DNA of 64,000 bases from Streptomyces sp. NBC_01775 (GTDB lineage: Bacteria > Actinomycetota > Actinomycetes > Streptomycetales > Streptomycetaceae). Positions 26,931 through 30,857 of this stretch are shown in pieces (position 1 is the first letter of the stretch; each line of letters begins with the position of its first letter). Position numbers and translations under genes: made by a program. A model generated the notes under the pieces. The model made no database searches. It saw nothing but the letters and a program-made list of their open reading frames with translations, and was not told the origin of the DNA. Location of the stretch: contig NZ_CP109104.1 of NCBI RefSeq assembly GCF_035917675.1, positions 4,650,001 to 4,714,000 on the forward strand, written 5' to 3'.

Positions 26931-28136
26931 TTACGGGGGCGGCGCCGACCCGGTCACGGGGCGGCGGTCCGCTCCAGAGGCGTCCTGTGAGACCTGCCCG
27001 CAGTCCGCCGGCCGGGGCTGCGACGGCAGGAGGGAGCCCTTCGGCGGGACGGCGGCGCCAAGTCTCCCGTCGGCATCCCGGTCCCCCTTCCGTCGCAGCA
27101 GGCGCCCCAGGGAGATGTAGAAGCGGTCGGGGAGGAACACGGCGTCGGCGACGATCATGGAAGCGGAGAAATACGGGAGCCCCATGAGTACCGCGATTCC
27201 CAAGTGCATGCCGAGGAGCATCGGGAGGAGGGCGTATTTGACTCTGCTGAACAGGAGGCACGGGAAAGCCACTTGAATCAGCACCGTCAGATATCCGACG
27301 ACGGTGAGGAACGTCGGCTGACGGTCGACCATGGCCGAGAGGGCGGGCCAGGGCCGGAACAGGTCAAGGTTGAGCACATAGTGCAGAGCGGTTCCGTCAG
27401 CCCAGAAGCTGCCCTGCACCTTGTAGAGACCCGCGGCCCCGTAGAGAAGGCAGATCTGGGCCGCGATGACCAGCATCCCGCAGTTGTGGATGAGCGTCAC
27501 CAGGCGCCGCCGCGTGATCCCGAGCTGGTGCCACCGGCTGGAGATCTCAGCGAGCGACGGCAATCCCGTACCCGCCGCACCGGAATGGAGCCGGTGCTTG
27601 CGTGCGTCGAGGGACCAGCGGCGTCCGCACGCCGTGAAACAGAGGTAGACGGACATGAGAAGGATCAGGTTGTCCCCGCCGTCCGTCATGAAGATGGTCC
27701 GGGCGTGGAGCGAGACCACGATGACCGCGAAGGCGACAGAGACGAACCTCGTCCGCCACCCCAGCATGAACAGCACGGACGTGACGAGGGCCAGGGCGTA
27801 ACAGGCCTCGAAGTACGGGCGCCCCGGGTACAGAGTGAGGATGCTGGACCAGCCGGTCTGCATGAACAACTCGTTCGCGAGAGCGGGTGTCCACGGCGAA
27901 CCGGGGCCCCAGATCTCATCGCGGTGCGGGAACTCCCGCAGGAGGAAGACCAGGTAGAGAAGCCCGTAGCCGATACGGAGCACTGCCGCGGCGTACAGGA
28001 AACCGGCCTGCTCGGTGAAGGCCGCACGACACGAACGCAGGGTGTCGAGCATCCGTCGCCTCGCGGTACCGAAGATCTGTGGGGCAGCCTGCCGACGGGG
28101 CGGGCACGGGGAATTCGGATTCTGCTCAGTTCGCAC
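26931..28136 (-). CDS. HTTM-domain membrane protein
   Basis: 401 residues. A ~40-residue polar start, then about seven or eight membrane helices in the HTTM (horizontally transferred transmembrane) pattern related to vitamin K-dependent gamma-carboxylase: LRIGYGLLYLVFLLREF, LALVTSVLFMLGWRTRF, DNLILLMSVYLCFTACG and LLYGAAGLYKVQGSFWADGTAL (split), the latter close to the conserved YxxAxxxKxxGxxW motif. The tail (~345-401) is polar. The GTG start overlaps the end of the DUF5819 gene by 11 bases. Catalytic function in bacteria is unproven. Confidence 0.83.
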   Translation of the reverse strand: MRTEQNPNSPCPPRRQAAPQIFGTARRRMLDTLRSCRAAFTEQAGFLYAAAVLRIGYGLLYLVFLLREFPHRDEIWGPGSPWTPALANELFMQTGWSSILTLYPGRPYFEACYALALVTSVLFMLGWRTRFVSVAFAVIVVSLHARTIFMTDGGDNLILLMSVYLCFTACGRRWSLDARKHRLHSGAAGTGLPSLAEISSRWHQLGITRRRLVTLIHNCGMLVIAAQICLLYGAAGLYKVQGSFWADGTALHYVLNLDLFRPWPALSAMVDRQPTFLTVVGYLTVLIQVAFPCLLFSRVKYALLPMLLGMHLGIAVLMGLPYFSASMIVADAVFLPDRFYISLGRLLRRKGDRDADGRLGAAVPPKGSLLPSQPRPADCGQVSQDASGADRRPVTGSAPPP

Positions 28137-28836
28137 GGGGGGTCACCTCCCACCACGGCAGATGCCGGGTCTCTCCCCGCGGAGGTGCGGTGGGCCGAGA
28201 ACCGCCTGTGGTCGCGGGGGCGGCGACCGGAACGGTACGCACACGTAGCTGGATTCTCTCGAATGGGCCCCGCCGATGCGCGGCGACCCGGTCCGCCGCG
28301 ATGTTGCTCAAGTACTCCTGCAACATTCGGGCCCGATCCGAATGAGGTTGATCGTCCCCACCGTGTGTTTCGAGATAAGAGGACCAGGCCCTGCGCAGGG
28401 TGTTCTGCGCGGTGTGACTCGGAAAGACGCTGTGCCTGACGGCTGCGTCATCCACGGCAGACAGATCGAACCAGTCACTGACCCTAGGGGTGCTGTTTTC
28501 CGTGGTATGCATGGTTCTCACCGAGATTTTGTGATTAAAAGATTCCGGGTTCGGAGCAAAGAGCTTCCAGTTCTGCTCGAACAACGGGAAGATCCACCCG
28601 TTGACCCGCTCCTGATAACGTTTCGAAATGGTATTCGAAGGTGCTACGTGCAGAAACACGAAGAGCAGATGAATCAGGCATGTGGCCAGGCACAGAGCGA
28701 CGGCTACGTCGATCGCTCGTCGTAGCGGACGGGAAAGTGGAGACCCCTCCCGTGGGTGCGCTTTTTCCCCACCCAAGCTCTGCGCGCTTTCCCGTTCCTC
28801 ATCGGTGGGCGCCTCATGGACCAGTCCGCTTTCCAT
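28126..28836 (-). CDS. DUF5819-family membrane protein
   Basis: 236 residues. One N-terminal membrane helix (~35-58, AIDVAVALCLATCLIHLLFVFLH), then the soluble domain with SKRYQERVNGWIFPLFEQNWKLFAPNPES (split): the W..F.QNW.LFAP pattern typical of the family. The C-terminal ~60 residues are basic. DUF5819 is regularly followed by an HTTM gene in streptomycetes, as here, so the two probably form a membrane complex. ATG at 28836 follows GAGGGA. Function unknown. Confidence 0.82.
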   Translation of the reverse strand: MESGLVHEAPTDEERESAQSLGGEKAHPREGSPLSRPLRRAIDVAVALCLATCLIHLLFVFLHVAPSNTISKRYQERVNGWIFPLFEQNWKLFAPNPESFNHKISVRTMHTTENSTPRVSDWFDLSAVDDAAVRHSVFPSHTAQNTLRRAWSSYLETHGGDDQPHSDRARMLQEYLSNIAADRVAAHRRGPFERIQLRVRTVPVAAPATTGGSRPTAPPRGETRHLPWWEVTPRAN

Positions 28837-29081: not shown

Positions 29082-30857
29082 CTACCGGCAGGGCGGCCCT
29101 TCACCACGAAGGCCGTTGTGCTCGCACTTCTTGCCGTGGTGGCCAGAAGGCTTGTGGTGCTCGCACTTCTTGCCGTGGTGGTGCTTGCAAGGCTTGTGGT
29201 CGTCACACTTCCCGTGGCCCTTGCAAGGCTTGTGGTGGTCACACTTCCCGTGGCCCTTGCAGGGCTTGTGGTGCTCGCACTTCTTGCCGTGGTGGTGCTT
29301 ACAGGGCTTGTGGTGGTCACACTTCCCGTGGCCCTTGCAGGGCTTGTGGTGCTCGCACTTCTTGCCGTGGTGGTGCTTACAGGGCTTGTGGTGGTCACAC
29401 TTCCCGTGGCCCTTGCAGGGCTTGTGGTGCTCGCACTTCTTGCCGTGGTGGTGCTTGCAAGGCTTGTGGTCGTCACACTTCCCGTGGCCCTTGCAAGGCT
29501 TGTGGTGGTCACACTTGCCGTGGTGCTTGCAAGGCTTGTGGTGGTCACCGTGGCCACCGCCGTGTCCGCCACCCGTGGTGTTCCCGGCCGTATTGCCCCG
29601 GGTGCTGCCCGCAGCATTGCCCTCGGTATTGCCGGAGCTGCTTCCGGCAGTAATGCCGGTTGTGTTGCCTTGAGTGTTGCCAGAACTGTTTCCGGCGGTA
29701 ATGCCGGATGTGTTGCCCTGGGTGTTGCCTCGCGTGTTGCCTTCGTTGCCTGCCGTGTTACCAGCGGTGTTCCCCTGGACACTGCCCTGGGTACCGCCGC
29801 CCACGTTGTTGCCGGCGATCGATCCGCCGCCACCCGTGATCAGGCCACCCGTGGTCAAGCCACCTGTGGTGCCGCCCGAGAGGGCGCCGCCCAGAACGCC
29901 TCCCAGAACTCCCGTGGTGGTGCCCGTGGTGGTACCGGCGGTTGTCCCGGTTGTGGTGCCGGTGGTCGTGGTGCCGGTGGTCGTCCCGGTCGTGGTGCCG
30001 GTGGTCGTGGTGCCGGTGGTCGTCCCGGTCGTAGTGCCCGTGGTCGTCCCGGTCGTAGTGCCGGTGGTCGTAGTGCCGGTGGTCGTCCCGGTCGTAGTGC
30101 CCGTAGTGGTCCCGGTCGTGGTGCTGGCGCACTCAGGCCGGGTGATCCGGTTGGTGTCCAGCGTCACGGAACCGTTGCGCGCCAGCGCCCGGCCGTCGAT
30201 GCTCGCTCCGGTGTTCGCGGTGATCGAGGTCAGGGCCAGGATGCTGCCCACGAAGGTGGTGTTGGTGCCGAGCGTGGCGGAGCTGCCCACCTGCCAGAAG
30301 ACGTTGCACGGCGATGCGCCGTTCACGAGGAGCACACGGCTGGCCGAAGCCGTTGTGAGCGATGATCCGATCTGGAAGACGAACACCGCGTTGGGATTGT
30401 TCTGGGCGTCCAGCGTCAGCGTGCCTGTCAGACCGGCGGTACTCGACGCGTTGTAGACCCCGGGAACAAGGGTCAGCCCGCCCAGGTCAGGGGGAAGGCT
30501 GGCATCCGCAGCCTGGCCCGCAGCGTTGTTGTACGCGGTGGTCAGGTCGTTCTTGGCCGTCAGGGCTGGGCCATCTGCCGAGTGAGTGGTCCCGTTGACC
30601 AGTCCGGGGGGGAACCCGCTGATAGCCGTCCCGGGGCTCACTCCGACGTCGCCGGTGATCACGGACGGGCCGGTGTTGGTGATCGACTGGCCCGCGAGAA
30701 CGGCGTAGGTGCCTGCGGTACCGAGAGGGACAGGTGTCGCGACGGCCTGCGCTCGCGAAGCGGTTACTGCGACCATGACTGCGGCGATCATCGCCACCGT
30801 CGCGAGCCAGGCGGTAATGGTGCGTCTATTGAGCGCACCCCAGAGGCTGAGTCTCAT
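29082..30857 (-). CDS. Ice-binding-like (DUF3494) surface protein with Thr/Gly and Cys/His/Lys repeat regions
   Basis: 591 residues. A signal peptide ends near residue 40 (AMIAAVMVAVTASRAQAVA). Residues ~42-230 match the ice-binding/DUF3494 beta-solenoid: LGTAGTYAVLAGQSITNTGPS, VITGDVGVSPGTAISGFPPG, NPNAVFVFQIGSSLTTASAS, VFWQVGSSATLGTNTTFVG and ASIDGRALARNGSVTLDTN (each shown in part). Then comes a (TGTT)n Thr/Gly stretch (~240-310), a Gly/Asn/Thr region with NTQGNT-type units (~340-440), and a Cys/His/Lys-rich tail (~445-585) of 26-residue repeats containing HHKPCKGHGKC. No membrane anchor or sortase motif is seen. ATG at 30857; an upstream ATG at 30893 has a GAAGGG site. Confidence 0.85.
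   Translation of the reverse strand: MRLSLWGALNRRTITAWLATVAMIAAVMVAVTASRAQAVATPVPLGTAGTYAVLAGQSITNTGPSVITGDVGVSPGTAISGFPPGLVNGTTHSADGPALTAKNDLTTAYNNAAGQAADASLPPDLGGLTLVPGVYNASSTAGLTGTLTLDAQNNPNAVFVFQIGSSLTTASASRVLLVNGASPCNVFWQVGSSATLGTNTTFVGSILALTSITANTGASIDGRALARNGSVTLDTNRITRPECASTTTGTTTGTTTGTTTGTTTTGTTTGTTTGTTTGTTTGTTTTGTTTGTTTGTTTTGTTTGTTAGTTTGTTTGVLGGVLGGALSGGTTGGLTTGGLITGGGGSIAGNNVGGGTQGSVQGNTAGNTAGNEGNTRGNTQGNTSGITAGNSSGNTQGNTTGITAGSSSGNTEGNAAGSTRGNTAGNTTGGGHGGGHGDHHKPCKHHGKCDHHKPCKGHGKCDDHKPCKHHHGKKCEHHKPCKGHGKCDHHKPCKHHHGKKCEHHKPCKGHGKCDHHKPCKHHHGKKCEHHKPCKGHGKCDHHKPCKGHGKCDDHKPCKHHHGKKCEHHKPSGHHGKKCEHNGLRGEGPPCR
29120..29545. repeat. 78-bp tandem repeats encoding the Cys/His/Lys tail
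   Basis: The block starting CTCGCACTTCTTGCCGTGG recurs at 29274, 29352 and 29430, exactly 78 bp (26 codons) apart, with partial copies at 29121 and 29160 and variant units to about 29545. The repeats keep the frame of the minus-strand protein and are almost identical, so the array is recent or is homogenised. Confidence 0.9.
29920..30120. repeat. Short tandem repeats encoding Thr/Gly
   Basis: Runs of GTGGTGCCGGTGGTCGTCCCGG-like units with a 12- to 15-bp period encode alternating TTT/TG blocks on the minus strand. This length-variable DNA separates the ice-binding-like domain from the tail. Confidence 0.85.

Follow-up and report, generated by a model that had tools for sequence, protein, structure and literature searches.

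What keeps a putative surface protein on a Streptomyces hypha when its sequence ends in nothing that resembles an anchor, and what do the two genes that follow it contribute? The question arises from a stretch of 64,000 nucleotides (the window) that encodes a protein with an ice-binding-like domain (IBP; DUF3494) and a long C-terminal tail crowded with Cys, His and Lys. A first-pass annotation drew attention to this tail and overlooked the hexads on which it is built, the two conserved genes downstream, and the minority status of Cys-rich tails. The reading developed here, to which we give about an even chance, is that an unanchored surface protein is served by a dedicated SdpB/GGCX-like maturation pair, with the tail retaining it through disulfide, metal or charge contacts.

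An ice-binding-like protein with a repetitive tail

The IBP gene lies on the minus strand (29082..30857; 591 aa, ATG at 30857), and reading of the ORF and its translation confirmed that the frame is open throughout. A putative ribosome-binding site, AGGAAG, was recognised by eye 6 nt 5' of this ATG, and Met1 is almost invariant in an alignment of 24 IBPs. The first 38 residues (30744..30857, minus strand) form a hydrophobic segment of the export type, with a helix at residues 8-30 in the structure model; the assignment draws on that model and on position counts among relatives. The protein had been described as secreted in the first pass. An export-type N-terminus is indeed present, and export itself would be its likely consequence.

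The DUF3494 domain, which had also been claimed, is well established. It spans about residues 41-243 (30129..30737, minus strand) on the combined evidence of profile, structure model and a solved relative, and the PF11999 match scores 230.7 bits against a cut-off of 28.7, covering residues 53-239 and profile positions 1-208 of 208. A scan of the protein with NCBIfam gave a single match, IBP_CFB, under its cut-off. Ten-residue pLDDT means run from 88 to 98 across residues 41-240, and the domain as modelled has the beta-solenoid with accompanying helix that defines membership of DUF3494. Among solved structures it comes closest to 6eio (52% identity where the domains align, TM-score (target) 0.87), which we take to be EfcIBP. 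The window's protein may bind ice; the Euplotes-associated EfcIBP is described as weak in recrystallisation inhibition (PMC12337378). Beyond the domain the model loses definition, with pLDDT below 50 for residues 252-591.

This poorly modelled part has two sections. Residues 244-437 (29547..30128, minus strand) are a spacer of Thr/Gly (TTG) and Gly/Asn/Thr repeats, predicted to be disordered, much as the first-pass annotation had it. Residues 438-591 (29085..29546, minus strand), delimited by TRF and residue counts, are the tail, whose reported richness in Cys, His and Lys is borne out in frame by 22 Cys, 42 His and 37 Lys, along with 20 Gly, in 154 residues. Its first 20 Cys are separated by intervals of strictly 6 or 8 residues (6,6,6,6,8,6,6,6,8,6,6,6,8,6,6,6,6,6,8), and over the whole tail the only spacings are 6, 8, 12 and 13. 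The array consists of six 12-residue and four 14-residue units, not in strict alternation, followed by a degenerate last one. At the DNA level TRF reports a 78-bp period (5.6 copies, 85% matches, 29118-29548) and also periods of 18 and 36 bp within the same interval. Two tandem copies of one 26-mer (78 bp) have identical DNA, as do two separated copies of a second version. What had been presented as a 26-residue repeat is real as a 78-bp period, while the unit proves to be a 12-mer plus a 14-mer of Cys-x5 and Cys-x7 steps in non-strict order.

Is the tail genuinely coding? GC content by codon position in its frame is 0.60/0.38/0.88, and this coding-type GC3 supports the frame as real. All three plus-strand frames are likewise open across the tail, so openness by itself is weak proof. 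The first-pass annotation had made the meaning of the tail depend on its being in frame, and it is, with GC3 at 0.88. The DNA repeats are near-identical, which marks the array as recent, and pairwise differences among units of equal length number 22 silent and 18 amino-acid changes, figures that do not reveal purifying selection within the array. An artefact of fragmentation is less likely in a host genome that is 99.97% complete and consists of 2 contigs, though the number of repeats could still be wrong.

The downstream pair and its recurrence

Two genes follow on the same strand. The DUF5819 gene (28126..28836, minus strand) matches PF19136 at 184.2 bits; its ORF is open from 28935, with a likely ATG at 28836. 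The gene for an HTTM, SdpB-like membrane protein (26931..28136, minus strand) has a GTG start, matches PF05090 at 32.2 bits and overlaps the DUF5819 stop by 11 nt. The distance from the IBP stop to the likely DUF5819 start is 245 nt, which leaves co-transcription of the IBP unproven; a simple scan of this strand found no terminator-like site between the two genes.

The arrangement is far from peculiar to this genome. Of 199 same-genus genomes, this one among them, a profile search found PF11999 in 45, yielding 54 full-length IBP loci once four fragmentary matches (in G087 and G128) had been omitted. At 35 of the 54 the IBP gene is followed on its own strand by DUF5819; 18 have none in the 0.7 to 4.5 kb downstream, and one ends at the IBP stop, its near-identical counterpart L038 carrying the pair. 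HTTM is visible at 18 of the 35 DUF5819-linked loci, and the other 17 span at most 1029 bp downstream, too short to reach it. In a larger set of 55 pair-linked loci (that is, loci where DUF5819 was seen), HTTM was seen at 38 and not reached at 17; the set of relatives drew on the best 80 of 126 IBP relatives. Five IBPs with the same type of tail (L034, L039, L041, L044, L186) are followed by no pair over the 1.9 to 3.5 kb examined. DUF5819 occurs in 197 of the 199 genomes, at just 1 to 4 copies each, so chance adjacency to an IBP gene is very unlikely. The trio was found on a 62-kb Streptomyces plasmid as well. All told, we regard the linkage of IBP, DUF5819 and HTTM in one cassette as very probable.

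The IBP-linked pair is one of several in its genome. The 30 best-scoring DUF5819 copies, termed core here, all stand beside an HTTM gene, with no IBP in the stretch examined, and an IBP-free pair of this kind seems to belong to the genus core (loci L131-L160). The own core copy (G000:C1:4643956-4644441) and the IBP-linked pair are about 34 kb apart, and a third pair brings the number in this genome to three. In a tree of HTTM proteins, which the own core copy enters twice and the own third pair three times, the 30 IBP-linked rows form one group (support 99/98) that is sister to the core; the 31 core rows form another (100/99), and 9 rows of other pairs form one group.

Other pairs keep other company. 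The third pair, at L168 (G000:C1:804500-816500, about 4.7-6.8 kb), follows a small signal-bearing peptide ORF whose product ends in FDK and resembles peptides of two Streptomyces plasmids (L171, L173). HTTM matches occur in 13 plasmid records; in the 7 examined, signal peptides being judged by eye, the gene upstream of the pair encodes a small signal-bearing peptide in four, an IBP in one and a 711-aa repeat protein in one, with none in the last; a family search with the small cargo peptides gave no match over a cut-off. The repeat protein, on a Curtobacterium plasmid (L172:923-3058), has a sortase-like C-terminus and is followed by DUF5819 and HTTM, and it is a counter-example to the notion that the pair replaces a sortase. 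The pair on a B. subtilis plasmid is a counter-example of another kind, to the association with exported cargo, since it has no cargo gene annotated upstream. At five of the seven plasmid loci (L170, L171, L173, L175, L176) a DUF393/DCC1-type thiol-disulfide oxidoreductase is annotated beside, or as, the HTTM gene, which hints at thiol chemistry.

What the pair might do is suggested mainly by the HTTM protein. The SdpB model TIGR04033 gives the window's HTTM a score of 52.3 bits (E 5.9e-14), short of the 178.4 set as cut-off, and 28 of 28 HTTMs match it at E 0.001 or better. A profile of these 28, compared with all solved structures, retrieved 8 distinct sequences, all of them vitamin-K-dependent gamma-carboxylase (GGCX), with modest scores (E 3.7e-4 to 0.012), and by this comparison the HTTM membrane core appears to be homologous to GGCX. 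Lys239 of the window's HTTM, invariant in 28 of 28, aligns with GGCX Lys218 (printed numbering shifted by 31 to the 758-residue chain), which we take to be the catalytic base, and the column of GGCX His160, presumably a catalytic residue too, is occupied by Gly154. A fold model of the HTTM was rejected as structural support: its pLDDT is 58, and although GGCX tops the list of matches the best E is 0.44. As for DUF5819, 23 of these proteins gave no match to the SdpA model (NCBIfam, E up to 10), and comparison with solved structures gave no match. We know of no defined function for bacterial HTTM/SdpB proteins. Searches of open-licence full text for DUF5819, for ice binding with HTTM, for HTTM with SdpB and for gamma-carboxylase with SdpB each found no paper; in an excerpt of one report on a peptide cluster that includes an HTTM protein, its mechanism is called unclear (PMC9927463).

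Tails, anchors and lineages

The translation of the window's IBP contains no C-terminal sorting signal or membrane segment and simply ends in its hydrophilic tail. This is the rule among its pair-linked relatives. In 116 scorable non-redundant IBPs (4 duplicates and 12 rows with short flanks or open ends omitted), a C-terminal membrane segment was scored in 1 of 55 pair-linked proteins versus 32 of 61 unlinked ones, leaving 54 and 29, respectively, without. Fisher's p of 1.7e-10 is descriptive, the rows being related, and the scoring rule is a hydrophobicity heuristic with misses, as with L055 and L053, which look sortase-like yet were scored without a segment. The pair label changes 6 times on the domain tree versus 38.6 times when shuffled. 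The contrast follows phylogeny: what is correlated is lineages, and common descent rather than function may account for it. By eye, the residues before the domain separate pair-linked from unlinked IBPs by weak differences only. Two sortase-domain ORFs (PF04203; 13124-15322 and 15590-16381, minus strand) are found in the window about 13 kb from the IBP gene.

The tail itself has few close counterparts. A DNA search of 392 same-genus genomes, own included, matched it in 6, and only one of the 391 others has a matching IBP tail (G184, locus L008/L188, 69% identity). In the other four, the tail-like DNA belongs to non-IBP, His/Lys-rich repeat proteins: judged by eye from the translations, L189 and L192 have sortase-type C-termini and L191 is another repeat protein, while L190 is presumably chaplin-like, to judge by its motif. 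A His/Lys-rich composition is common to other likely surface proteins of the genus (L189, L190, L192). A word-based protein search with the tail gave 542 candidates and none at E 0.001, although low-complexity kin may escape such a search through its composition correction. This genome is almost alone in having the exact repeat.

The hexad pattern is less so. Among 128 non-redundant IBP loci, Cys-hexads of other wording occur in the same clade (CKHHDK in L008, CRDHDK in L033), and denser or looser Cys tails occur in L032, L046, L056, L031, L040 and L006. The first-pass annotation held that the tail would lose its functional meaning were the repeats absent from close relatives. That is half the case: the exact repeat is almost confined to this genome, and L008 and L033 have hexads in another wording. 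In the window's clade of the domain tree (support 94/95), 6 of 11 members have Cys-bearing tails; two others, L015 and L121, stop right after DUF3494, show no pair in the stretch examined and are possibly decayed. At least four tail Cys were counted in 10 of 55 pair-linked IBPs (one of which, L094, looks frame-shifted) and in 5 of 61 unlinked ones (L086, L100, L101, L104, L105), where by eye the Cys belong to added domains.

Cys-rich tails are a minority form of a widespread tail rich in His, Gly and charged residues. Composition was counted over the last 80 residues in 50 of 54 pair-linked soluble, 26 of 29 unlinked soluble and 29 of 32 unlinked membrane-type rows, short, masked or apparently frame-shifted tails (L094) being omitted, and median His is 11.5, 4.5 and 1, respectively. 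All 50 scored pair-linked tails hold at least 3 Asp+Glu, and 4 of the 50 have no Glu; what they have in common is a His/Gly/acidic make-up. Since 45 of the 55 pair-linked IBPs have fewer than four tail Cys, Cys cannot be the general target of the pair.

Weighing the explanations

From these comparisons we infer export, dependence on the pair, retention at the surface, and cross-linking or metal binding, in the following arrangement. The IBP gene would be the secreted cargo gene of a three-gene cassette. Its product would be exported and its beta-solenoid displayed on the flexible Thr/Gly arm, with the disordered C-terminal tail keeping it at the wall, sheath or aerial-hypha layer independently of any sortase anchoring. 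The tail of this strain's protein, like that of a few relatives, appears to have been rebuilt from Cys-x5 hexads, which after export would form intermolecular disulfides, His/Cys metal bridges or both, its Lys and His perhaps also contacting wall polymers. DUF5819 and HTTM together would serve to mature this one cargo at the membrane, in a layout that resembles SdpA-SdpB and with an HTTM core that resembles the vitamin-K-dependent carboxylase. The metal binding, cross-linking and adhesion put forward in the first pass are candidate roles of the tail. A protein that has no C-terminal anchor could be retained by cross-linking, though for the role of the tail in retention or cross-linking our confidence falls just short of even. 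A bolder version, which we strongly doubt, would make the trio a bacterial counterpart of the vitamin-K system: HTTM, using menaquinol at the outer membrane face, would modify Glu or Asp of the tail presented by DUF5819 and so produce a metal-binding, cross-linkable surface protein, the Cys/His hexads being in that version a second cross-linking chemistry of this strain. Carboxylation of the tail was set aside as the main reading, given the four tails that lack Glu and the one presumed GGCX catalytic residue that is missing.

The composition of the tail could also be read as that of a metal buffer, its 42 His and 22 Cys binding Zn or Cu at the surface while DUF3494 merely displays the store, and the tails of L008, L032 and L046 are also dense in Cys and His. 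Metallothioneins, however, are small proteins with CxC or CC clusters, and the tail has no such pairs, every Cys spacing being at least 6. Moreover, the six neighbouring ORFs scanned include no metal transporter or regulator, and most kin tails have His but fewer than four Cys; we consider a metal store unlikely. Slippage might instead have grown a hydrophilic end under mild selection, with no specific function attached to its wording. The wording does vary between lineages, the DNA repeats are near-identical and hence recent, no homologue of the tail was scored in the protein search, and differences between units are nearly as often amino-acid changes as silent ones (18 versus 22). Such drift sits poorly with Cys spacing held strictly at 6 or 8 over 20 consecutive Cys, with the recurrence of hexads in other wording in L008 and L033, and with the likeness of pair-linked tails in His/Gly/acidic make-up, down to the 50 of 50 with at least three acidic residues, and we think it distinctly improbable.

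A different role for the pair would be to help cut a precursor and free the cationic Cys/His tail as an antimicrobial or signalling peptide, as proposed for SdpC/YitM. The SdpB matches of all 28 HTTMs and the small signal-bearing peptides of sister cassettes speak for such processing, as does the precedent of yitPOM, which makes a secreted toxin and whose authors suggest, in an excerpt of their paper, that the C-terminal part of YitM is processed through YitP and YitO (PMC6818787). Against it, none of 23 DUF5819 proteins matches SdpA, and the tail has no hydrophobic C-terminal segment of the kind described for SdpC and YitM. Release of a peptide is, to our minds, very unlikely.

If the maturation reading holds, its interest extends beyond one strain. 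HTTM/SdpB proteins are related to the carboxylase that acts on human clotting factors, and a cassette that recurs and includes a large cargo amenable to purification would supply them with a defined candidate substrate. Surface proteins could also be kept on Streptomyces hyphae in this way without sortase, and the genetically encoded Cys/His/Lys hexad tail could be used as a cross-linkable material.

The locus shares elements with several known systems and coincides with none of them. The type 1 IBP of 6eio, from an Antarctic biological consortium, has the same fold, but the window's protein comes from a streptomycete-type genome and adds a long Thr/Gly arm, a Cys-hexad tail and DUF5819-HTTM neighbours. 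Actinobacterial DUF3494 surface proteins with a sortase-type C-terminus (L061, L069) likewise join the domain to a low-complexity arm; they have a membrane segment with a sortase-type motif and no pair, whereas the window's IBP has no such segment and has the pair. Likeness to GGCX is limited to the membrane core of the HTTM protein. Comparable in layout are SdpABC and YitPOM of Bacillus subtilis, where a secreted cargo is likewise accompanied by an HTTM protein, SdpB-like here with a score under the model's cut-off, and a second accessory protein. Here, in contrast, the cargo is large and structured and is encoded by the first gene, and DUF5819 has no match to the SdpA model; where the SdpABC precursor is small and ends in a hydrophobic toxin segment, the cargo of this cassette is a 591-aa protein with a hydrophilic tail.
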